Assembly (NCBI GenBank): GCA_001799565.1
Contig: MGTS01000021.1
Location: 33,984-97,983 of the forward strand
Length of the DNA: 64,000 bases
Origin: Elusimicrobia bacterium GWA2_51_34
Lineage (GTDB): Bacteria > Elusimicrobiota > Elusimicrobia > Elusimicrobiales > UBA9959
Reading direction: 5' to 3'
Shown here: piece by piece, positions 1 through 63,813 of the stretch
Numbering within the stretch: the stretch's first letter is position 1
How the letters are laid out: each line of letters starts with the position of its first letter
The notes under the pieces: generated by a model
Database searches by the model: none
What the model saw: the letters and a program-made list of their open reading frames with translations, nothing else
What the model was told of the DNA's origin: nothing
Position numbers and translations under genes: made by a program

Positions 1-1440
1 CGACTGCACCAATTCAAAGAACTTGTTTTCGTCTAAATTCTTTTTTTCATTGTTCCATGAAGCGGACAAACAGTACCAGGCGTTACTTTTGCTTTTTAAA
101 AGCCAGGTCATGTTCAGCACTCCGGGCTCCGAGCCGCCTTTATAGCCCGCGTAAAAAAAATTGCCGGTCTCCATATCAAGCCCCGTATTCACCCCACCAC
201 CTGTCAGCCTTAGGCCGACAGGTGGTGGGCTCATAGCCAGGATATCCAGCGCCTGTTTGTCGTCTTTTTTATAGATATATTCCATCAGACGGCACAAATC
301 GGCGGGTGAGGCCATCCACTCTATTTTGTCTATGCCGAAAGAGCTTTTTTTAACGGCCTCCGCTTTAAGCGGCGCCGCCGCTAGTTCCGACAGGAATCCG
401 TATTTGTCCCCAGGAGGCAGATTCAGGTATTTGAGAACGGACTCGGTGTCGCTTTTCAGGCGGAACATTTCGGAAGTTTTAAGGAACGGACGCATCAGAG
501 CCGGATTTGAATGGCCAAATTTTTGCAGGTATCCCTCCAGAGTCTTTCTGCCTATAGTTTCTATCAGCAGGTCCGCGGCGGTATTGTCGCTTTCAGAGAT
601 CATCATAACGGAAAGCGTGTGCGCGGTAAGGGGAGAGGCATCTGGCCATCCCGCCAAACCGCCGGCGGGGCCGTCCGCCTTAGGCGCCCGCCACACATCA
701 CCGGCGGGCAACTTGTCCGCCAACGCCGTAGTGGCGGACGGACGGCCGCCCGGCAGGGATTTCTGCTCTTCCCTAAGATGCACTATTGTCTTCCACCGAA
801 CTCCTTTCTCAAGCAACGCCCCCAAAACATAAAGTTTAAAGGCCGAACCCACGGCAAAATAGCCGTTTTCATTAACACCCGCCAGTTCCCCCTCAGCTCC
901 GCCGGTCGGGGAAGGAACGCCGAAACGCCGGAGTATAAAGCCGGTTTTGCCTTCAAGGCGCACGAGTTTTTCCTTAAACTCCTGAAGCAAGAGGTTTTTT
1001 TTATATGCTGTCGTAAAAAAAACACCCGAAATCTTGCCGGTATCAGGATCAAGGGAGAGCGCCGCCGGCAGTTCAAAATTATTTTCCGTTTCAAAAATAA
1101 AGTGGGCCGAAAAAGCGGAGTCCGCGCGCTCAAGACGCACCGCCGTAACACGGCCATTGCTTTTATAGATACCGGAAAGGATGTCTGAAAGTTTTTCAAG
1201 CGAGATCCGGTGAAAAAAGTTTTTATCAAACAGCCCGGGGAGATTTTGAGGCTTTTCCGCTATCTGAGCGGAAAGCAGGCGGGCGGCGGACTCAAGAGCC
1301 GCCGCGCTTTCGTTTTTTTGGGCGAAACTGTTCAGGCAGAAAAACAGCAGGCCGGCGGCTGCAAGGACGCTGCGGATAAGGAACCGCGTGATTTTATCCG
1401 CGCGTTTTGCGTCCGCTCCTACTGTTTTAAAGATGGCCAT
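1..1440 (-). CDS. Class A beta-lactamase-fold serine hydrolase, 3' end beyond window
   Basis: Reading leftward from ATG at 1440 the frame stays open for 480 codons to the window edge, so the C-terminus is missing. A hydrophobic segment at about residues 20-40 (LIRSVLAAAGLLFFCLNSFA) looks like a signal peptide or anchor. The three landmarks of the penicillin-binding/beta-lactamase fold are present: SxxK as SAFK (199-202), SDN within ISESDNTAA (281-289) and KGG (434-436) replacing KTG. The SAFK-to-SDN distance is about 30 residues longer than usual. The excess is a Pro/Gly/Ala-rich stretch (about 231-260) encoded by an inverted repeat, and a second palindrome encodes about residues 405-416. I infer a secreted or periplasmic serine hydrolase; true beta-lactamase activity cannot be claimed. 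A GGAG about 11 nt upstream of the ATG is a plausible ribosome site. Strong on fold, weak on substrate. Confidence 0.85.
   Translation of the reverse strand, partial: MAIFKTVGADAKRADKITRFLIRSVLAAAGLLFFCLNSFAQKNESAAALESAARLLSAQIAEKPQNLPGLFDKNFFHRISLEKLSDILSGIYKSNGRVTAVRLERADSAFSAHFIFETENNFELPAALSLDPDTGKISGVFFTTAYKKNLLLQEFKEKLVRLEGKTGFILRRFGVPSPTGGAEGELAGVNENGYFAVGSAFKLYVLGALLEKGVRWKTIVHLREEQKSLPGGRPSATTALADKLPAGDVWRAPKADGPAGGLAGWPDASPLTAHTLSVMMISESDNTAADLLIETIGRKTLEGYLQKFGHSNPALMRPFLKTSEMFRLKSDTESVLKYLNLPPGDKYGFLSELAAAPLKAEAVKKSSFGIDKIEWMASPADLCRLMEYIYKKDDKQALDILAMSPPPVGLRLTGGGVNTGLDMETGNFFYAGYKGGSEPGVLNMTWLLKSKSNAWYCLSASWNNEKKNLDENKFFELVQS
193..229. repeat. 37-bp near-perfect palindrome inside a coding region
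   Basis: Arms of 18 bp (CCCACCACCTGTC... paired with ...GACAGGTGGTGGG) surround one central base, with a single mismatched pair. It lies in frame in the serine hydrolase gene and encodes roughly PPPVGLRLTGGG. The core GCCTTAGGC resembles the palindrome family found elsewhere in the window. Confidence 0.9.
661..754. repeat. In-frame inverted-repeat insertion in the serine hydrolase gene
   Basis: A G+C-rich block whose ends are imperfect inverted repeats (GCCGGCGGGGCCGTCCGCC at 661-679 against 733-754). Internal hairpins include CCGTCCGCCTTAGGCG and, read on the minus strand, GGACAAGTTGCCCGCC followed about ten bases later by GGCGGGCGCCT. The latter module recurs at about 54408-54432 inside another gene. 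The block encodes a low-complexity stretch of about 30 residues between the SAFK and SDN motifs without breaking the frame. Confidence 0.8.
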
Positions 1441-3884: not shown

Positions 3885-5456
3885 ATGGCTAAGAAAAAAG
3901 TTCTGCTTATTGTGCGCGACGGATGGGGCATGGCTGAGCCGGATAAATTTAACGCGGTGGACAACGCCAAAAAGCCGAACATGGACCGCTACCTGAAAGA
4001 ATATCCCAATTCCGTGCTTGAAGCCGCGGGCATTGCGGTAGGTTTACCCAAAGGATATCAGGGCTCGTCCGAAGTCGGACATCTTAACATGGGCGCGGGC
4101 CGTATAGTCATACAGGAACTTAAGAGAATAATGGACATGATAGAGGACGGAACATTCTTTAAAACCGCCGCCCTCAAAAACGCCATAGATAACGCGGTCA
4201 AAAACAACTCGGCTCTTCATTTAATGGGCCTTGTACAGGACGAAGGCGTGCACGCCCACCAGGATCATCTCTACGCCATAATGCGCCACGCCGCGAAGTC
4301 CGGAGTAAAACAAATCCGGGTGCACTTCTTCGCCGACGGCCGCGATACGCCGCCGCGCAGCGCGCTCAGCTTTCTGAAAATGCTTGAAGAAGTGATAAAA
4401 GAAGTCCCCGAAGCTGAAATAGGCACTATAATGGGCCGCTACTACGCCATGGACCGCGGTGAAAAATGGAAACTCACCGACCAGGCCTATAACGCCATAA
4501 CGAAAGCCGAAGGAGCCCGCGCCGCTACCGCCGAAGAAGCCATTAACCGCGCTTACGCGGACCTGAAAAATCCGAACGGCCAGCCTATTGTGGACGAGTA
4601 CCTCCCCCCCACCATAATAAGCGGCTACAAAGGCATGAAAGACGGCGACTCCGTGGTGCACTTTAACTTCCGTCAGGACCGCGCCATACAACTTACGAAG
4701 GCGTTCGTAGAAGACAATTACGCCGGCGCGCGCTGGAAAAAATTAAACATAACCTACTGCGGCCTCACCCGCTATTACGACTCTTTCAAGTTCAGCGCGC
4801 TGCCTCCCATGGATGAAGGCGGCGGCATGGACAATCTGCTCGGGCAGATAATCTCAAACGCAGGTCTTAAACAGCTGCGCCTCGCCGAAACCCAGAAATT
4901 CAAACACGTGACCTCCTTCTTCAACGGCAAACGCACCGAACCGTACAAAAACGAAGACCAGGTGGAAATAATGGGCGCCTGGGACCCGTCCAGCTTCGGC
5001 GAACATCCCGAAATGAACGCACCCGAAGCGGCCGAGCGCGCGCTTACCGAAATTGCCTCTGAAAGATACGACTTCATCCTGGTCAATTTCGCCAACGGCG
5101 ACATGGTGGGACACACCGGTATATATGAAGCCGCCGTAAAGGCCATTGAAGTGGTGGACGGCATGGTCGGCAGGCTTGTGGACGCGGCGCTTGAGCACGG
5201 CTACACCGTAATGGTGACTTCCGATCATGGTAACGCCGAGGAAATGTGGGACTATAAAATAAACATGCCTAAAACCGCCCATACTACCAACCCCGTGGAA
5301 TTTTTTTACATAGCCGGGGATATTTCCGCAGTAAAACTGCGACAGCACGGCATACTTTCTGATATTGCCCCCACCGTGCTTGAAACACTGGGTCTGCCAA
5401 AGCCGGGAGATATGACGTCAGAATCGCTTATTGTCTGCAATAAGCGATTGCCGTAA
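3885..5456 (+). CDS. gpmI: 2,3-bisphosphoglycerate-independent phosphoglycerate mutase
   Basis: 523 residues, the usual size. Interconverts 3- and 2-phosphoglycerate in glycolysis/gluconeogenesis with two divalent metals. Seen: N-terminal RDGWG metal site (11-15), SSEVGHLNMGAGR (61-73) with the phosphorylated serine probably Ser62 (commonly NSEVGH, here SSEVGH), FADGRDTPPRSA in the substrate domain, and C-terminal TSDHGNAEEM with a following AHT metal site. TATAAT at 3868-3873 sits only 11 nt before the ATG, with AGGA between them, so the mRNA leader must be very short. The stop codon lies inside the word repeat at 5449-5551, which ends the protein in RLP. Confidence 0.95.
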   Translation: MAKKKVLLIVRDGWGMAEPDKFNAVDNAKKPNMDRYLKEYPNSVLEAAGIAVGLPKGYQGSSEVGHLNMGAGRIVIQELKRIMDMIEDGTFFKTAALKNAIDNAVKNNSALHLMGLVQDEGVHAHQDHLYAIMRHAAKSGVKQIRVHFFADGRDTPPRSALSFLKMLEEVIKEVPEAEIGTIMGRYYAMDRGEKWKLTDQAYNAITKAEGARAATAEEAINRAYADLKNPNGQPIVDEYLPPTIISGYKGMKDGDSVVHFNFRQDRAIQLTKAFVEDNYAGARWKKLNITYCGLTRYYDSFKFSALPPMDEGGGMDNLLGQIISNAGLKQLRLAETQKFKHVTSFFNGKRTEPYKNEDQVEIMGAWDPSSFGEHPEMNAPEAAERALTEIASERYDFILVNFANGDMVGHTGIYEAAVKAIEVVDGMVGRLVDAALEHGYTVMVTSDHGNAEEMWDYKINMPKTAHTTNPVEFFYIAGDISAVKLRQHGILSDIAPTVLETLGLPKPGDMTSESLIVCNKRLP

Positions 5457-5551
5457 GCCGTAGGCCGTAGGCCATATGCCATAGGCCGTATGCTATAGGC
5501 ATTTTAAAGAACTCTTTGCAGCTTATGGCTTACGGCATACGGCCTATGGCA
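5449..5551. repeat. Word palindrome (GCCGTAGGCC type)
   Basis: Left arm: tandem variants of GCCGTAGGCC/GCCATATGCC. A spacer of about 40 bases follows. Right arm: the reverse-complement words (CTTATGGCTTACGGC, ATACGGCCTATGGC). It overlaps the gpmI stop and ends 13 nt before the yggU start. The same word is used at 10981, 41650 and 45740. Confidence 0.8.
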
Positions 5552-8103: not shown

Positions 8104-8912
8104 CAGGCATGATTAAAAAAATATCTCTCCCTGCAATGTTCTTTTGCGCGGCCTTTTCAGCCCTCGCTTTCCGGCCGGACGCCCAGAAAGCGGCGGCCAA
8201 AGCCAGTTGGATGAACGTGTCGGCGCTCGATACAGGAAGTAATTATTACATGGAAATAGCCCAGGATGGCAGGGCACTGATACGGACTGAATCAAAAAAC
8301 TCCGCCACCACGCGCCGAGGCCGGATACCGCCGCAGCTTGCGAAAGACTTTTTTCGCGAAATTGAGAATTCGGAAGTAATAAACGCCCAGAGCGCCGCAG
8401 CCAATAAAATGGTTTTCTACCGCGGTGAGGTTTTAAAAATTTCAGCCTATATAACCGGGGAATTGCGCCGCGTGAACGCTCCGCTTAATACTTTCGGAGA
8501 GGCCTTCTCTCACGCTTTCAGCGAGGCAAAAAAGAACATAGAAAAACTGCCGCTTGAGAAGAATCTCTGCGGTTTCCTGAGCGCGGAACCGATTGAGGGG
8601 GACGCGCTTGATCAGTTCCGAGAAAACGCCTCAAAAGAGCGCGAAGTAAAGAATATTGAAACTTACGATATACAAAAAGTTAAACCTCTTTTTGACGCCA
8701 TAAAACATCCCTACCGGCTTATTGCGCTTGAGAGCCAGGGCGATCTGAAAAACATCAGGGATTTTATCTCTCTTTACCAGCTTTACGGTCTGCGCAGACT
8801 TTTTTACGTGCCAAGCACCAGGGGGGTTTTCAAGTGTCAGGTGCTGGAAGCCGGCACAGACAGGGCCGAACGCGCCGCGGCCGCCTCAGGCGGACGGCAA
8901 CCCCGGATATGA
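8100..8912 (+). CDS. Exported protein of unknown function
   Basis: 270 residues, no family recognised. GTG at 8100 overlaps the preceding TGA (GTGA), which argues for translational coupling; ATG at 8109 is the alternative start. An N-terminal signal peptide (about 5-24, ISLPAMFFCAAFSALAF) predicts export. The body is mixed alpha/beta with no cysteine pattern or repeat. FSLYQLYGLRRLFYVP-like segments near 225-245 are hydrophobic but too short for confident membrane calls. The last 15 residues (RAAAASGGRQPRI) are written partly by the palindrome at 8879-8899. Position after the DsbA and MauE genes suggests an envelope role, by inference only. Confidence 0.65.
   Translation: MTGMIKKISLPAMFFCAAFSALAFRPDAQKAAAKASWMNVSALDTGSNYYMEIAQDGRALIRTESKNSATTRRGRIPPQLAKDFFREIENSEVINAQSAAANKMVFYRGEVLKISAYITGELRRVNAPLNTFGEAFSHAFSEAKKNIEKLPLEKNLCGFLSAEPIEGDALDQFRENASKEREVKNIETYDIQKVKPLFDAIKHPYRLIALESQGDLKNIRDFISLYQLYGLRRLFYVPSTRGVFKCQVLEAGTDRAERAAAASGGRQPRI
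8879..8899. repeat. CCGCCTCAGGCGG palindrome at a gene's 3' end
   Basis: Core CCGCCT-C-AGGCGG (8881-8893) in the final codons of the gene at 8100-8912. It belongs to the GTCCGCCT/AGGCGGAC family seen at 672, 13645, 30843, 54297 and 63601. Confidence 0.7.
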
Positions 8913-9820: not shown

Positions 9821-10993
9821 ATGATTAGGATGTTGAAAAATGTTTTTACGCAAAAAACGCACGACGGCACCACGGAACGCCTGCTGCAGCTGGCACTGGC
9901 CTACTTCGCCACCTACATATTGACCGGAATTGCTCCTAAATACTTTATGAATACCGCTCCCGGCTATCCCGCCATGAGCGATGTCCAGTATATGGTTTAC
10001 TCCACGCTCTTATCCAGTCTTTTCTGCGTAACGCTCGTCATAATCTGGAAATGGTATAAATTCCAGTCCCAGGGCAAAATCACGGTATTAGGCCTGAGTT
10101 TCCCTAAAGAGTTCCTTTATATCATTCCGTCCGGCGTCTGCACCGCGGTGGTCATTCCGACCACCACGCTGATGTACCTGCTGCCCATCTCGGTGATGGT
10201 TGCCATGATAATCATGCGGGCGAGTATCATCGTAATAAGCCGCCTTATTGATTCAATACAGATACGCCAGGGCATCCTGACTAAAACAGTCTACATGGAA
10301 GAAAATGTGGCCGTAGTCTTCGCGTTGGCCGCCGTGGGAATGAAGCTATGTTATGTCAAGCCGGGCGACTTTGACTTCGTCCATAATGCCGCAGCAGTGA
10401 CCATTCTAACCTCTTACATCATTGCCTATGGCATCCGCATCTACATTATGAACTATTTCAAAAACACGCGGACCAAGGGGGTGCCATACGATAACAAAGG
10501 CTTTTTCGCCGTGGAACAGTTATCCGCCAGTACCACGATGATACTCGCTGCACTTGCCGTGGTATATTTCATGACCCCGGACCTGGCCAATCCCAAAGAC
10601 TTCGTGGCCAACTTTCAGGACGCGTTCTCAAACGCCCATAAGGATTGGCTCAAAGCCGCCCTGGCAGGCATCCCTTACGGCATAGGCGCTTTTTTTTCGG
10701 TGTTCCTGTTCATGTTTAAGGGCCGCACCGCCACTTTCGCGGGGCTAGTTAACCGCCTAACCTCGCTTATCGCAGGCACCATAGCAACGCTCATTGTATT
10801 TCTGCTTATGGCGGCAAAACCGCCGGCCAGAGAAGACTGGCTCGGCCTGATACTGATCTTTATCGCCATATACTTCCTGGGCGTTTCCGAAAAGAAGCGC
10901 GCCTGCGAACTGGCAAGGGCTCATGAAATTGAGCTGGAAAAAGACACGGAAGCGGTCTGCGCCCCAGACGGAGAAGACCGCCATAAGCCATAG
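9821..10993 (+). CDS. Polytopic membrane protein of unknown function
   Basis: 390 residues from ATG 9821, chosen because GGAG lies 8 nt upstream; an earlier in-frame start at 9776 is inside repeat DNA. About ten hydrophobic segments span nearly the whole length, with charged loops KWYKFQSQGK and NYFKNTRTKG. It ends in an acidic/basic cytoplasmic tail after residue 360. The layout is reminiscent of ten-helix drug/metabolite transporters (two similar halves), but I see no diagnostic motif. It sits just upstream of ugd and uxs, so a role in nucleotide-sugar or glycan handling is possible, by position only. Confidence 0.6.
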   Translation: MIRMLKNVFTQKTHDGTTERLLQLALAYFATYILTGIAPKYFMNTAPGYPAMSDVQYMVYSTLLSSLFCVTLVIIWKWYKFQSQGKITVLGLSFPKEFLYIIPSGVCTAVVIPTTTLMYLLPISVMVAMIIMRASIIVISRLIDSIQIRQGILTKTVYMEENVAVVFALAAVGMKLCYVKPGDFDFVHNAAAVTILTSYIIAYGIRIYIMNYFKNTRTKGVPYDNKGFFAVEQLSASTTMILAALAVVYFMTPDLANPKDFVANFQDAFSNAHKDWLKAALAGIPYGIGAFFSVFLFMFKGRTATFAGLVNRLTSLIAGTIATLIVFLLMAAKPPAREDWLGLILIFIAIYFLGVSEKKRACELARAHEIELEKDTEAVCAPDGEDRHKP

Positions 10994-11027
10994 GCCGTAT
11001 CTCAACTTTACGACTTACGGCAATAAT
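10981..11027. repeat. Word palindrome (GCCATAGGCC type), short copy
   Basis: CCATAAGCCATAGGCCGTAT, then CTTTACGACTTACGGC as the short opposite arm. It overlaps the stop of the membrane protein gene and precedes ugd. Confidence 0.6.
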
Positions 11028-15118: not shown

Positions 15119-16054
15119 CTAAAGTCCTACGGACATTGCCCCGCGCCCCCTATTCGCTATTCGCCACTCGCTATCCGCCGTCCTTATCGTATTTGCGTGA
15201 ATGCGCGAGGTGTCTTTGATTTTTTTCGCATAGCCGCCGCTTAAAACCACGGCCACCGGCAGCTTGCGCCTGAAGCATTCGGCTAAAACTAAAGCGTCTC
15301 TTTTTTTAATACCCGACATGGTAAGATTAAGCCCGCCAAGCAGATCCCCTCTATATACATCGGCCCCTGCCACATAAACAGCCAAATCCGCCCTTGCCGC
15401 GTTGAGCGCGGCCGAAAGATTGCGCCGCAGCAGAGCCAGATACCCGCCGTCGCCCGTGCCGGGCCGAAGCTTGATATCCAGCGAGCTTTTTTCTTTTTCT
15501 TCCGGGTAAATCTCCCCATTGTGCATTGAAAAAGTGAAAACATTTCTGTCTTTTTTAAAAATTGAAGCCGTGCCGTTTCCCTGATGCGCGTCCAGGTCAA
15601 TAATTACAGCGCGGCGTATTTTTTTCGCCTTAAGCAGTTTTTTAACCGCCACCGCGATATCGTTAAGCAGGCAGAATCCTTCTCCGTGATCCGAGAACGC
15701 GTGATGCGCGCCGCCTCCGCAATTAACACCGAGGCCGCTTTCAAGCGCCAGTTCCGCCGCTTTTATGGTGCCGCCCACATTCATCAAATGCGCCAACGCC
15801 ACGGCGGGCGTTATCTCAAGTTCGGCCTTTGTGGAATCTATGCGCGTAAATTTAAAGCGAAGATTTTTTTCCACCCAGGGCCTGGTATGCGCCAGTTCCA
15901 GGTCTTTTTTGGAAGGCCGGGCCGGTTCAACCACATCCCGCCGGGAAACCACACTCCCCCTGATCAAAATCTTAAGCGCTTCTTCAAATTTTTCCGAACG
16001 GAACACATGGCCGCTGTTTTTTACCGTATAAAGTTTTGAAAAAGCTATTTTCAT
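15119..16054 (-). CDS. Histone-deacetylase-fold (AcuC/HDAC family) deacetylase
   Basis: 311 residues. All HDAC landmarks are visible: GGGAHHAF (His117/His118), DLDAHQGNGT (zinc ligands Asp155 and His157), MHNGEIYP, GADVYRGD (third ligand Asp232) and LSGGYA (Tyr275). The second H of the usual DxHHG is Q here. Bacterial members deacetylate small acetyl-amines, polyamines or acetylated proteins; the substrate cannot be told here. The final roughly 17 residues (SEWRIANRGRG and on) are encoded by the GCGAATAG word repeat at 15146-15182 and look added to an otherwise complete domain. Neighbours, a clostripain protease and a cupin, give no pathway. Confidence 0.9.
   Translation of the reverse strand: MKIAFSKLYTVKNSGHVFRSEKFEEALKILIRGSVVSRRDVVEPARPSKKDLELAHTRPWVEKNLRFKFTRIDSTKAELEITPAVALAHLMNVGGTIKAAELALESGLGVNCGGGAHHAFSDHGEGFCLLNDIAVAVKKLLKAKKIRRAVIIDLDAHQGNGTASIFKKDRNVFTFSMHNGEIYPEEKEKSSLDIKLRPGTGDGGYLALLRRNLSAALNAARADLAVYVAGADVYRGDLLGGLNLTMSGIKKRDALVLAECFRRKLPVAVVLSGGYAKKIKDTSRIHANTIRTADSEWRIANRGRGAMSVGL
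15146..15182. repeat. GCGAATAG word repeat forming a protein C-terminus
   Basis: CCTATTCGCTATTCGCCACT then CGCTATCCGCCG: three to four tandem GCGAATAG-type words (minus-strand reading), one arm only. It lies within the last codons of the deacetylase gene. The same word occurs at 20503-20603 and 52186-52268. Confidence 0.75.
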
Positions 16055-16455: not shown

Positions 16456-16520
16456 TATGCAGCTCCTTCAAAACCTCTAATGGACATAAGGGTCCTTACC
16501 ATATTACTATCCCCCCACAT

Positions 16521-16700
16521 CTGAAACTTCCGACCTCCTGAAAAATTTGCAAAAAGTCTTCCCCTCTCGCTATAATACCAAAAGCGGGACGTTTGTATTA
16601 AATTTTTACGTGGTTTTCCCAGCCGTCCTCCAAAACGGACAGCTGGGTGTGAGGGAGTCGGTGTGTTTCAGTCCGCCGGGGCGGGACCAGCCCTTCTGGA
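16521..16700 (+). promoter_or_regulatory. Repeated promoter box and structured leader, copy A
   Basis: ACTTCCGACCTCCTGAAAAA is followed by TTGCAA (16547-16552), an 18-nt spacer and TATAAT (16571-16576). A transcript would begin near 16584 and run about 300 nt to the ubiA-like start. The leader has AAAAGCGGGACGTTTGTATT with an AT-rich run, then a hairpin CCCAGCCGTCC/GGACAGCTGGG (about 16618-16647). Further on, CAGTCCGCCGGGG is shared with copy B. The rest of this 430-base gap holds no convincing gene. Confidence 0.65.
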
Positions 16701-18980: not shown

Positions 18981-20576
18981 CTACGCAACCAGCACGGCAA
19001 GAAGGAAGGCCGCGCAGATAATTATGCAGGCATTTACGAATAAATCGCCGTAGCGGACATAAAAACTTTCAACCGGCTCGGCCGCAAGTTTCACCTCAAC
19101 ATCCAAAACCCCGGCTCTGTTAAGCCCCAGGCTGCGCTGAACTCCGCCCCAGGGGTCGATATACGCCGAGATGCCGTTATTTGCGGCCCTTAGCACCGGG
19201 CGGCGCGTTTCCACCGCTCTGAAAATATTTACGAGCAAATGCTGATATGGCGCGGCGGTGTTTAAATACCACCCGTCATTTGTGATATTCACGAATATTT
19301 CCGCTCCCTTCGCGGCGTCCTGCCTGAAAAGGAACGGGAAAATGGATTCGTAACAGATAACGCCGCTGATCTTTATACTTTTGCTCTCCCGCTCGCTTGC
19401 CGTCCCGCTTTCACGCTGCCTGACTTCCATAAGCGGCTGCGAGAATTTTCCCGGCAAAAATTCCCCAAGAGCAGCCACCGGTTTTATGTAGCGTCCCAGA
19501 AAATCCCTGAGCGGCACATATTCGCCGAAGGGCACCAGCACCCGTTTGTAATACTCCGCCGTTATCGTCCCGGAGAGGTCCACAAGGAAGGCCGCCACCC
19601 GTTTGCCGTCTCCGCGCGAAACCGAGCCCACAAAGTTGGCGGTCTGTTTTTCTTTCGCGACGCGCGATACCCAGCCGCCGTAGTGTTTATCTTCTATCCA
19701 GCCGGGCAGGGCGTTTTCCGGCCATACAATGAGGTCGGTTTTTCCTATCCCTTTTATCAGGCCGTTAATTTTCTCTTCTATGGCGGCGGCCTGCCCCGCG
19801 TCCCATTTGGCGTAAAGGTCTATGGAGGGCTGAAGCAGGCTTGCTTTGAGCGGCGCTTGAAAAACAACCGAATCAGCTTTTTTGAGCTCCCAGTCGCCGT
19901 AAAGCCATAGACCTGAAAACAGCGCCAGGGCGGGCAAAGATCCAAGCAGGACTTTAAGCGGTTTTCTTTTTTGATACATCAGCGCGCCCGCAAGCGCCCC
20001 GCTAAAACACACGGCGAAACTTAAGCCATAAAGCCCGGTAACGGAAACTATCTGTATAATTTCCCCGTACTGCCACTGCGTATAAGCAAGCGTGAACCAC
20101 GGAAACCACGCCGCCTTGTAATTTACGCTGATCTTCGCCCATTCCATTACAACCCATGCGGCGGCGAACACATAAGGGAAAACCCCGGCTCCGGCCTTTT
20201 TAAGGTAAAAGCCGAAACCGGAAACCAGCAGGAATTCAAGCGCGAGCAGCGCGGCCAGCAGTATCAATCCGAGCGCCGAAAATGCGGGTTCAACTCCGCC
20301 GGCGCGCATGGTGGGATATATCCAGTAAAGAAGCCCCAGGTAAAAGAAGAAGCCGGAACCGAACCCGCAAAGCACCGCCGCTTTCAGGGTTTTGCAGGAC
20401 AATATTGAAATCACCAGCGGCGCCAGAGCGAACCACGCCAGCCAGCCCTGATTAAACTTCGGACAGCTCGCGATAAGCAGCAGGGAAGTGAGTAAAACAA
20501 GCGAATAGCGAATAGCGAATGGCGAATAGCGGCTGATAAAAGAAAAATCGCTTTTAGTAGTGTTTTGTTTTCCCAC
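18981..20576 (-). CDS. lnt: Apolipoprotein N-acyltransferase
   Basis: 531 residues. Adds the third acyl chain to the N-terminal cysteine of lipoproteins at the periplasmic face of the inner membrane. Seven to eight N-terminal helices (about 25-230) are followed by a nitrilase domain with the catalytic triad Glu287 (VWPENALPGW), Lys344 (YYKRVLVPFGEYVP) and Cys408 (GVICYESIF), plus a final C-terminal helix. The start is GTG at 20576 with GGGG upstream. Residues about 12-25 (SFISRYSPFAIRYS) are written by the GCGAATAG word repeat and lie ahead of the first helix. Its presence supports an outer membrane. Follows secA with an 80-nt gap. Confidence 0.95.
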   Translation of the reverse strand: MGKQNTTKSDFSFISRYSPFAIRYSLVLLTSLLLIASCPKFNQGWLAWFALAPLVISILSCKTLKAAVLCGFGSGFFFYLGLLYWIYPTMRAGGVEPAFSALGLILLAALLALEFLLVSGFGFYLKKAGAGVFPYVFAAAWVVMEWAKISVNYKAAWFPWFTLAYTQWQYGEIIQIVSVTGLYGLSFAVCFSGALAGALMYQKRKPLKVLLGSLPALALFSGLWLYGDWELKKADSVVFQAPLKASLLQPSIDLYAKWDAGQAAAIEEKINGLIKGIGKTDLIVWPENALPGWIEDKHYGGWVSRVAKEKQTANFVGSVSRGDGKRVAAFLVDLSGTITAEYYKRVLVPFGEYVPLRDFLGRYIKPVAALGEFLPGKFSQPLMEVRQRESGTASERESKSIKISGVICYESIFPFLFRQDAAKGAEIFVNITNDGWYLNTAAPYQHLLVNIFRAVETRRPVLRAANNGISAYIDPWGGVQRSLGLNRAGVLDVEVKLAAEPVESFYVRYGDLFVNACIIICAAFLLAVLVA

Positions 20577-25795: not shown

Positions 25796-25853
25796 CCTGT
25801 TTATTAACGTAAGTTTATCAGCATCATCCGATCTTATCGTAAGTTTTCCCCGG

Positions 25854-26070
25854 ACCTGAAGTTTCCAACCGCCTGAAAAATTTTGCAAAACATTTTGCAA
25901 AAAGCGTCCCCCTACCGTACATTTTATCTATAATACAAAAAGCGAGGTGTTTTTATTAAATTTTCAAAAGTTTCCCCCGCGCCGGTCGGTTTGTCAAGCG
26001 GGTGGTGAGATGGGAAGCGGGCTGTGTCAGTCGTCCGCCGGGATGGGTTCTATTTGCAGGCTTTTCGGGA
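25854..26070 (+). promoter_or_regulatory. Repeated promoter box and structured leader, copy B
   Basis: CCTGAAGTTTCCAACCGCCT then GAAAAA, two TTTTGCAAAA words (25881-25900) and TATAAT (25929-25934). The distance from the second TTGCAA to TATAAT is 28 nt, ten longer than in copies A and C. Downstream AAAAGCGAGGTGTTTTTATT, a hairpin region CCCCCGCG...AAGCGGG and CAGTCGTCCGCCGGG align with copy A. The remainder of the 408-base gap to 26203 shows no gene; a transcript leader of about 260 nt is implied. Confidence 0.6.
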
Positions 26071-30772: not shown

Positions 30773-31038
30773 AGTGTAGTGTCTCGCAAATAACTTTATT
30801 TTTGACTGGGCGATTTTGAGTTCTGGCTAGGCGCGAGGAGTGCGTCCGCCTTAGGCGGATAAGTGACGAGCAACGACGCCAGAACTCAAAAGCGCCCATC
30901 CCCCTGGGGGAAGCTCATCTTTGGCCGGCTGCTTCGTTGCTCCTCATTCACAGACCCCCGGTATGCTCGTTCGTCACGCCTCGCATCCGGCTCAAATCTG
31001 AGCTTTCAAAAATAAAGCTATTTGCGAGACACTACACT
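30773..31038. mobile_element. 266-bp MITE-like element with 33-bp terminal inverted repeats
   Basis: Ends begin AGTGTAGTGTCTCGCAAATA on both strands and match over 33 bp with one difference (30773-30805 against 31006-31038). Nested inside: a 20-bp inverted repeat (GGGCGATTTTGAGTTCTGGC at 30808-30827 against 30878-30897, one difference) enclosing CGTCCGCCTTAGGCGGA. There is also a second imperfect pair, GAAGCTCATCTTTGGCCGG against CCGGCTCAAATCTGAGCTTTC. No transposase is encoded. No clear target duplication is visible. Confidence 0.75.
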
Positions 31039-31130
31039 GGGAAATCTCCTATGACGGAAAAGATCGGGACATAATGAGTGAGGCGGCCTGACAGGAAATA
31101 TAAGAGCCGCAATCTTGTGTTTTCCCCGCG

Positions 31131-31187
31131 CCTGAAGCTTCCGGACGCCTCTTAAAGTTGCAAAAAGCAAATCATTACCGCTATAAT
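31131..31187 (+). promoter_or_regulatory. Repeated promoter box, copy C
   Basis: CCTGAAGCTTCCGGACGCCT, TTGCAA (31158-31163), an 18-nt spacer and TATAAT (31182-31187). A hairpin CCGCACTCTGG...AAAAAAGTGCGG follows. It drives the parvulin gene at 31304 through a leader of about 110 nt that does not share the long homology of copies A and B. Confidence 0.7.
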
Positions 31188-45728: not shown

Positions 45729-45739
45729 GAGTAATATCC

Positions 45740-45830
45740 ATATGCTTTAGGCCATATGCCAGAGGCTAAAAGGAGTTCCTTACAGCCTACGGCCTATGGC
45801 TTATGGCTTATGGCTTATGGCAATTTTACG
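45740..45830. repeat. Word palindrome (GCCATATGCC / GCCTATGGC type)
   Basis: Left: CCATATGCTTTAGGCCATAT then GCCAGAGGC. Right: CAGCCTACGGCCTATGGC then CTTATGGC three times. The arms are about 20 bp apart. The right arm ends at the stop of the M3 peptidase gene. Confidence 0.8.
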
Positions 45831-52185: not shown

Positions 52186-52268
52186 GCGAAGAGCGAATAG
52201 GGGGTGAGATCCTTAATCTGTTTCAGGATTTTACTATTTCGCTATTCGCTGCTCCCTATTCGCTATCC
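52186..52268. repeat. Word palindrome (GCGAATAG type), third locus
   Basis: Left: GCGAAGAGCGAATAGGGGG. Right: CTATTTCGCTATTCGCTGC then TCCCTATTCGCTATCC. The arms are about 35 bp apart. It shares the word of 15146-15182 and 20503-20603 and runs into the last codons of the aminotransferase. Confidence 0.8.
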
Positions 52269-54268: not shown

Positions 54269-55375
54269 ATGCGGCTTAAAACTACCAGGTCAGTCCGTCC
54301 GCCTAAGGCGGACAAGTCCCGCCCTTTTGGTCCTGGACCAGAGTCTTCTTCCAGAGCTTTGGATGTATTGTATTCAGCCGGGCCGCCAAAAGAGCGGGAC
54401 AAGTTGCCCGCCAGCCGCAGCGGCGGGCGCCTGCTTTTACTGCTTCCCGCGCTGATGTTCGGATGCGCGGCCGCGCTTTCAGCCCGAAGCTTCTCACGCG
54501 GCGTCAATGAACCCGAACTTTTGAATTACATGCGCGGCCAAAACGCCGACTCATCCTGCGACATCTGCTTGAACTCGGCAAAAAAATATTACGACGAAAA
54601 ACGCAAAGACGAACTGAATAAGAAAACCGCCGGCATGTCGCTTATCCCGGGCGGCAGTTATTACATCGGTTCTCCCGAAGGCGTCGGGGACCCCGATGAA
54701 CACCCTGGCGGGGGAATATATATTAGCGCTTTCTATATAGACAAAACCGAAGTGACCCTTGAGAACTATGCGCAGTTCACGCGCGTAACCACCGGCAACT
54801 TCCCGGAATGGCAAAAATCCGGCGGGAAGTATAACATAGACACCGGTTCCGATAAATATTATAAAAGGCTGGACGTCCTTATAAAAACCTGCGCCAACTG
54901 CCCCGTGTTCGGCGTTACCTGGGAAGACGCCAACGCTTATTGCCGCTGGAAAGATAAACACCTGCCCACCGAAGCGCAATGGGAAGCGGCGGCGCGGGCG
55001 GGTTCAAGAGAAAAATATTTTTTTGGCGACACGCAGGATCAGGCCGGAGAATATTCCTGGAATGAAAACAATTCCGGAGAGGTCCCGCACCCTGTCGGCC
55101 AGAAGAAACCGAATAAATACGGCCTTTACGACACCGGCGGCAATGTGTGGGAATGGGTATCCGACTTGTATGACAAACGCTATTATTCCGTCCGCCCGTC
55201 TAAAAACCCGTCCGGTCCGCAAGCCGGCAGTGAGCACGTTATACGCGGCGGCTCGTGGGCGTTTGATGCGGATTCAACGCGCCCGGCCAACCGCGCGAGC
55301 TACAAAAAAGCCAACGACGATATAGGATTTCGCTGCGCCGTTTTGGAAAGAGAATTGTCCCGCGAGCCTGAATAA
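54269..55375 (+). CDS. FGE/SUMF1-like lipoprotein-type protein with a repeat in its leader
   Basis: 368 residues. The N-terminus MRLKTT is followed by about 48 low-complexity residues encoded by an inverted-repeat element, then RLLLLLPALMFGCAA, which looks like the rest of a signal peptide with an atypical lipobox cysteine. From about residue 120 runs a formylglycine-generating-enzyme-type domain: MSLIPGGSYYIGSPEG, FYIDKTEVTLENYAQF, VTWEDANAYCRWKDKHLPTE, GLYDTGGNVWEWVSD, VIRGGSWAFD and FRCAV. The paired copper-binding cysteines of true FGE are not seen at GNVWEWVSD, so catalytic FGE activity is unlikely. Probably an envelope protein. Confidence 0.8.
   Translation: MRLKTTRSVRPPKADKSRPFGPGPESSSRALDVLYSAGPPKERDKLPASRSGGRLLLLLPALMFGCAAALSARSFSRGVNEPELLNYMRGQNADSSCDICLNSAKKYYDEKRKDELNKKTAGMSLIPGGSYYIGSPEGVGDPDEHPGGGIYISAFYIDKTEVTLENYAQFTRVTTGNFPEWQKSGGKYNIDTGSDKYYKRLDVLIKTCANCPVFGVTWEDANAYCRWKDKHLPTEAQWEAAARAGSREKYFFGDTQDQAGEYSWNENNSGEVPHPVGQKKPNKYGLYDTGGNVWEWVSDLYDKRYYSVRPSKNPSGPQAGSEHVIRGGSWAFDADSTRPANRASYKKANDDIGFRCAVLERELSREPE
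54297..54432. repeat. Inverted-repeat element inserted in a signal-peptide coding region
   Basis: Begins with GTCCGCCTAAGGCGGAC (54297-54313), then CCCGCCCTTTTGG...CCAAAAGAGCGGG arms, then GGACAAGTTGCCCGCC with GGCGGGCGCCT. The last module also occurs in the serine hydrolase gene (661-754), and the CTTTTGG arms resemble the nested element at 44603-44702. Length keeps the reading frame. Confidence 0.8.
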
Positions 55376-63571: not shown

Positions 63572-63813
63572 GAGCCTGTCCGACATAAGGCTTTCATAGC
63601 GTCCGCCTCAGGCGGATGATGCCGGGTGGATCGAAGCGACACAATTCAGGCAATCAGGCCGAAGCGACGCGAAACGAGCATTCTGGACAGGACTGTGCGT
63701 TGGCCGTCTGATGAGCATAGCTCTTGATACGGCACTGGCATAGCCTTGAGCGGCGCAAAGGCGCAGGCCAAAAGCGGCAATTGCAGCCGAAATTACTTAT
63801 GTCGGCCAGGCTC
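63572..63813. mobile_element. MITE-like element with GAGCCTGTCCGACATAAG ends
   Basis: Left end GAGCCTGTCCGACATAAG (63572-63589); right end on the opposite strand GAGCCTGGCCGACATAAG (63796-63813), one difference. About 240 bp long; inside, the palindrome GTCCGCCTCAGGCGGA (63601-63616) lies near the left end. No coding capacity recognised. It occupies most of the gap between the NfeD gene and the final partial gene. Confidence 0.65.

Follow-up and report, generated by a model that had tools for sequence, protein, structure and literature searches.

In Elusimicrobia bacterium GWA2_51_34, a gene for a serine hydrolase of the class-A beta-lactamase-like type carries two in-frame palindromic blocks, both of which very probably belong to a family of short palindromic repeats, non-autonomous and present throughout the genome, that multiply in this organism and sometimes land in genes (a reading to which we assign a probability of roughly 0.85). 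Compared with every relative sampled, the two blocks are insertions, and they have dispersed copies; many copies lie in frame within unrelated, conserved and partly essential-type genes, and the repeats are modular, the same hairpin having a second palindrome at its centre in some places and none in others. The stretch of DNA analysed, here called the window, comprises 64,000 nucleotides and corresponds to positions 33984-97983 of contig C21 in a draft genome (G000; 2.63 Mb, 97.8% complete, 43 contigs).

The host gene occupies window positions 1-1440 on the reverse strand; its frame reaches the window edge still open, and a run of N adjoins the gene in the contig. A domain search matches the protein to PF13354 (E 2.6e-14), and its closest counterpart in both sequence (2xep, E 3.5e-16) and fold (2xft, E 8e-24) is ORF12, a cephalosporin esterase of the clavulanic acid pathway. 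Alignment places the SxxK motif (SAFK, residues 199-202) at 835-846, the SDN motif (residues 284-286) at 583-591 and a KGG motif equivalent to KTG (residues 434-436) at 133-141, all on the reverse strand; the three are intact and, together with the fold, identify the protein as a class-A beta-lactamase-like, ORF12-like serine hydrolase.

Insert 1 is a composite palindromic element of 84 nt (approximately 658-741, reverse strand) that encodes 28 amino acids (residues 234-261) between SxxK and SDN. A sequence-only reading of this DNA had described a palindromic block here, of 94 bp at 661-754 and encoding about 30 residues (231-260); the block is real and in frame, but alignment gives it the shorter limits above, bases 742-754 being host codons and the placement remaining ambiguous by a few nt. 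Homologues of the host gene were found in 28 of 60 relatives searched, and 26 were aligned: the 28-residue block is wanting in every one, two matches meet at query positions 233|258 in nearly all homologues, and the SxxK-to-SDN spacing is exactly 28 residues longer than in the 26 relatives, an enlargement which that reading had noted in approximate terms. It had also correctly named the flanks, REEQKSLPGG(R) and LAGWPDASPLTAHTL, between which the relatives' linkers run through without the block. Insert 1 contains hairpin A (GTCCGCCACTACGGCGTTGGCGGAC; 715-739) and hairpin B (GCCCGCCGGTGATGTGTGGCGGGC; 686-709), both on the reverse strand, and ends in a partial CCGCCTTAGGCG core palindrome (673-686). 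Its inverted-repeat character is borne out by RNA folding, which yields -67.4 kcal/mol compared with -53.2 +/- 3.7 in shuffles (z -3.9), none of 200 shuffles being equally stable.

Insert 2, absent from the sequence-only reading, lies in the same gene at 190-231 on the reverse strand (42 nt; 14 amino acids, residues 404-417, SPPPVGLRLTGGGV), and will be referred to as a P2 palindrome. It forms a near-perfect hairpin (fold z -8.0) in which an outer stem, CCCACCACCTG/CAGGTGGTGGG, encloses a core centred on CCTAAGG, and it is wanting in each relative that covers the site. Both empty sites can be read in G002, a member of the same genus, as KSLPSGR-LQNWPD for insert 1 and ILAINT-GLDI for insert 2. 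An AlphaFold2 model of the host protein has a mean predicted local distance difference test (pLDDT) score of 82.9 and is mostly well ordered outside the inserts; values below 50 are confined to residues 1-7, 180-182, 232-258 and 407-425, and the two long segments coincide with the inserts, insert 1 being predicted to be disordered. Both insert loops probably leave the active site, with its SxxK, SDN and KGG motifs, intact.

Further copies of insert 1 were expected from the sequence-only reading and were indeed recovered by genome search, with 92-96% identity over 50-74 bp on C6, C14, C41 and C42 and with 83-88% over 58-60 bp at three places on C7 and C17; all of them carry hairpins A and B with the linker AAGTT. 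Insert 2 has copies at C42:152034, C21:223559, C43:8205 and C33:61266. A core palindrome related to both inserts, CCGCCTNAGGCGG, occurs at 96 sites in the genome, compared with a single site for the reversed control pattern, and all but about 40 of the 96 were inspected individually. Within the window, pattern search and scoring of open reading frames (ORFs) locate the core at 8881-8893 (CCGCCTCAGGCGG, 3' end of a 270-aa ORF), at 54299-54311 (5' end of a 368-aa ORF), at 63603-63615 (intergenic) and at 30846-30858, in an intergenic position enclosed by the two arms of a larger inverted repeat (30773-31038). This last structure resembles a miniature inverted-repeat transposable element (MITE), having 48-nt terminal arms (83% complementary) and the core palindrome in its interior. 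Abundance varies widely among relatives: G015 has 206 cores, four others have 33, 32, 21 and 20, many have none, and the other family of the order has almost none. An Rfam search of the window gave no match. An exact search of 85,000 species with the 19-nt linker GGCGGACAAGTTGCCCGCC, from which the genome itself and very near ones may have been excluded, returned only single scattered matches in unrelated taxa, and thus no related family at this linker.

The distribution of the core relative to genes was assessed at 50 sites on C1-C20, using ORFs scored by codon statistics trained on the window and counting a site as intragenic where a convincing ORF extended at least 15 codons on either side of the core. 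Eighteen sites (36%) lie inside genes and four at 3' ends; the other 28 are intergenic and fall in ordinary gaps with no clearly broken gene around them. One could propose that the core functions as a signal in DNA or RNA, such as an uptake sequence, a protein-binding site or a terminator, selected at many places, and several intergenic copies do form terminator-like hairpins with T runs; however, the intragenic share and the extremely patchy abundance among close relatives render this explanation improbable.

Two concatenated queries served to compare further host genes with two genomes of the same genus (G001, G002) and two of the same family (G005, G034), and clean empty sites in the relatives were revealed for ten of these genes. 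The inserts add 17 aa to TsaE, 14 aa to a dihydropyrimidinase-like protein (a P2 palindrome, as in insert 2), 20 aa to a glycerol-kinase-like protein, 36 aa to TsaD (with the two-hairpin module of insert 1), 54 aa to PTS IID and 5 aa to an alpha-amylase-like protein, where the insert is exactly the 15-nt core TCCGCCTCAGGCGGA; genes at C18:40501, C6:118395, C5:11245 and C5:12316 gain 28, 7, 11 and 14 aa, respectively. RdgB/Ham1 probably carries an insert of about 25 aa, judged by alignment with a single homologue, while GrpE and several others, with inserts in variable linkers, were left out of the count. An ORF of 676 aa at G000:C17:36200-39500 contains a tandem array of three or more palindromic modules, which are of two types (two core composites, one P2 hairpin). 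Relatives have separate inserts of their own, in Lgt of G002 and TsaD of G001, and TsaE of G015, which belongs to another genus, carries a long independent insert with the same palindrome (G015:C10, around 4129) at the same protein site (SASFNLMRTY|IYHFDLFR), a position that may represent an insertion hot spot. It is of note that this TsaE is the only convincing ORF among 17 core positions examined in G015, so that a heavy load of intragenic copies does not simply follow from a high copy number.

These observations bear on the suggestion that the blocks are assembly artefacts, or that the hydrolase simply displays ordinary variation in loop length. The genome is a draft, a run of N adjoins the gene and palindromes are hard to assemble, but more than ten independent inserts preserve the frame, the copies share sequence, and relatives harbour independent inserts such as those in TsaE of G015 and Lgt of G002; such an origin is scarcely credible.

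The reading frame of the intragenic copies is not evenly distributed. All 18 intragenic cores are read in two of the four stop-free phases (nine in each), giving SALGG or PPKA, and never in the phase that gives RLRR, which is open at 14 of the 18 sites with 12-nt flanks and at 10 of the 18 with 24-nt flanks; this bias is only suggestive, since stop codons in the longer composites account for part of it. P2 copies in plausible ORFs mostly read PPP...GGG (the window, C42:152039, C21:223560, C39:11461, C37:48744, C32:52897 and C17:37864), some of these ORFs being less certain (C21:223560 scores low); the C32 copy is N-terminal. The exception, C1:10793, lies at the very start of an ORF, reads PTTC...AGGG and may precede the true start codon. 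Such a pattern would be expected if the copies were translated and filtered for tolerable peptides. Alternatively, the inserts could be removed or skipped during expression, by splicing or by ribosome bypassing as in some fungal mitochondria, and their strong hairpins would suit such a process; but neither process needs an open frame, whereas the inserts are open and multiples of three, and within ORFs the P2 copies keep to a common frame, which makes removal or skipping very unlikely.

The modular nature of the family is most apparent at the P2 outer stem, CCACCACCTG/CAGGTGGTGG. This stem encloses a 3-nt centre at C37:85450 (TAG), C5:58849 (TAG, one base off) and C20:80211 (CCG); the 15-nt core or a variant of it at C21:223560, C42:152039 and in the window; and longer, mostly hairpin-bearing centres at C39:11461, C42:5888, C1:10793, C37:48744, C32:52897, C17:37864 and C20:38701. 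The empty hairpin, CCACCACCTG-TAG-CAGGTGGTGG, and its core-filled version are therefore both present in one genome. More generally, the stems around the core vary between sites, several resembling intrinsic terminators, and at 13 of 43 non-redundant core sites at least three further complementary pairs extend beyond the first two outside the core, where 2.4 such sites were expected and at most 10 were seen in 2000 shuffles in which left and right flanks were re-dealt. A second dispersed repeat (TCATTGCGAG...GCGATCCCGCTGTTT) is also broken by the core palindrome (G000:C5:58849-59463 and C18:85997), a further instance of nesting.

A tRNA-Ala remnant on C18 (G000:C18, approximately 10760-10820) provides another example. 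Its 17-nt anticodon arm, CCTCGTTGCGAACGAGG, has been swapped for exactly the 15-nt core, TCCGCCTAAGGCGGA; an intact tRNA-Ala(cgc) lies some 250 bp away, and a simple tandem repeat (GTGGACA) adjoins the remnant. This replacement and the amylase-like insert both consist of exactly that unit, and 15 nt is therefore probably its minimal length; judged from the sequence patterns described, the unit probably favours hairpin centres. A bolder proposal is that the 15-nt palindrome TCCGCCTNAGGCGGA spreads into, or replaces, hairpins at their dyad centre, generating nested palindromes that then enter protein genes in frames that can be tolerated; such hairpin-to-hairpin propagation, which would differ from the behaviour of both Rickettsia palindromic elements (RPEs) and repetitive extragenic palindromes (REPs) mobilised by REP-associated tyrosine transposases (RAYTs), appears rather unlikely at present.

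The same evidence could be explained by replication-based exchange, in which no dedicated enzyme takes part and palindromes would be copied into other hairpins when templates are switched or hairpins repaired. The anticodon-arm swap, the bare 15-nt insertion in the amylase-like gene, the unrelated stems with the core at their dyad centre, several of them terminator-like, and the single outer stem with differing centres all speak for it. On the other hand, delivering one specific 15-nt sequence to many unrelated sites requires a donor-copying step, none of which was observed, and the patchy abundance (206 copies in one relative, none in many) resembles the amplification of a mobile element; we consider this route conceivable but less likely than not.

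Another candidate explanation holds that the repeats are ordinary REPs or MITEs moved by a genome-encoded RAYT-type tyrosine transposase, their nesting being incidental. The genome has six matches to Y1_Tnp and the relatives have many, and REPs within genes have been published for other phyla (PMC3733652). Nevertheless, the core lacks the unpaired GTAG or CGTC tag, and several of the Y1 genes are bounded by clear, unrelated inverted repeats; this account thus commands some credence, short of an even chance. As an observation in its own right, several of the Y1_Tnp/RAYT genes of G000 (on C33, C37, C39, C1 and C29) have long inverted repeats of their own, for example GGGGACAGTATATTTAA and GGGGACGTTGCTTAAACGC, with ends that vary from gene to gene. 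The inspected flanks provide no support for these genes as the source of the repeats.

The best reading remains that the palindromes form a mobile family of RPE/REP-like character, whose members often settle at hairpin centres and are kept in genes when they add an open, flexible peptide. Several points weigh against it. The inspected flanks of the six Y1/RAYT genes all lack the core palindrome; target-site duplications were looked for and none was consistent, the candidates (CCGG in TsaE, TGA around P2) not being claimed as such; and junctions are ambiguous by a few nt, since even same-genus relatives differ at about one-fifth to one-quarter of compared residues. Moreover, the assembly is a draft and the inserts are known from DNA sequence alone, and the dyad-centre pattern could be partly due to one nested composite spreading as a unit.

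According to the mechanism that best fits this reading, non-autonomous palindromes would enter DNA that is probably single-stranded, in many cases at the loop of a hairpin or the centre of a dyad, with a tyrosine transposase as the natural suspect for their mobilisation and hairpin template switching as an alternative route. Out-of-frame or damaging insertions would be purged, and the surviving intragenic copies would be in-frame, stop-free and located in loops or linkers of proteins that still work; where the frame is kept and a flexible loop rich in Pro, Ala, Gly and Ser is added, the copies may be tolerated as neutral passengers.

The sequence-only reading had likened its block to the RPEs, as a selfish palindromic repeat persisting inside genes in another lineage, and the empty sites, genome copies and in-frame copies in unrelated genes uphold this view. 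The two systems behave alike: both inserts are palindromes with stable stem-loops (z -3.9 and -8.0), copies are dispersed inside and outside genes, and insertions are in frame in unrelated genes, missing in homologues and apparently tolerated. What does not hold is the picture of one 94-bp element, as the repeats here are modular, nested palindromes around a 15-nt core. RPEs have a unit of about 150 bp (PMC10969869), whereas inserts of 15, 21, 33, 42, 51, 60, 84, 108 and 162 nt are found here, in a different phylum; the likeness claimed here is one of behaviour alone.

The REPs offer a second comparison. They are mostly intergenic short stem-loops that also occur in ORFs, sometimes twice per gene, where they often encode 20-30 aa, and intragenic GTAG/CGTC REPs are reported in Opitutus terrae, R. 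conorii and others (PMC3733652). The core described here is likewise a short palindrome found mainly between genes (28 of 50 sites, with 4 of 50 at 3' ends), and the two inserts of 14 and 28 aa in one hydrolase gene resemble those intragenic REPs. It differs in its palindrome of 15 nt, the loop of which is very short. Of 58 cores, 27 have CGTC at one end and 12 have it at both, where it overlaps the stem rather than standing as an unpaired tag; GTAG is almost absent, unlike in GTAG REPs, and in the flanks inspected the core does not border a Y1_Tnp gene as GTAG-class REPs flank their RAYT gene.

As for MITEs, no parent transposon was seen, and the 15-nt amylase-like insert shows no duplication, the other inserts being ambiguous in this respect. 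Insertion sequences such as IS1397 target the loops of REPs. The repeats described here probably likewise insert at the centre of an existing palindrome, but the inserted unit is in this case a geneless 15-nt palindrome. Nested GC-rich hairpins are a feature of fungal mitochondria. Palindromes within coding sequence are found in the mitochondria of Nematomorpha (PMC6649704). These mitochondrial systems thus share palindromes that lie within coding sequence or within other palindromes, whereas the repeats described here reside on a bacterial chromosome, with dispersed copies and with empty sites in relatives. The titles and abstracts listed by a text search, in a literature coverage that is incomplete, contain no report of palindromic repeats in Elusimicrobiota, for which such elements are probably new.

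The window also contains other repeats. Heptamer-like tandem and inverted repeats (GCCGTAGGCCATATGCC) are dispersed at 5444-5551, 10980-11000 and 45738-45821, and GCGAATAGCGAATGGCGAATAGCG repeats occur in both orientations at 15147-15178, 20505-20545 and 52186-52266. Direct repeats of 43 nt (CCCC..CTGAAACTTCC..CCTGAAAAATTTTGCAAAA) are present in at least three copies, at 16513-16606, 25848-25964 and 31124-31166, and two of these share a 37-nt block downstream.

The presence of palindromic inserts in at least ten other protein genes of this genome shows that Rickettsia-like in-frame hairpin insertion exists far outside Rickettsia; the frequent insertion of palindromes, in frame, into conserved proteins is hence not confined to that genus and the few other lineages for which it has been reported. 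With 96 cores in its own genome, 206 in one relative and none in many, and with empty and filled sites in essential-type genes such as those for TsaE and TsaD, this group constitutes a comparative system. How CGTC-type REPs move, a question previously left open, becomes testable here, and the empty and filled hairpins, together with the swapped tRNA arm, suggest that hairpin centres are favoured as targets.
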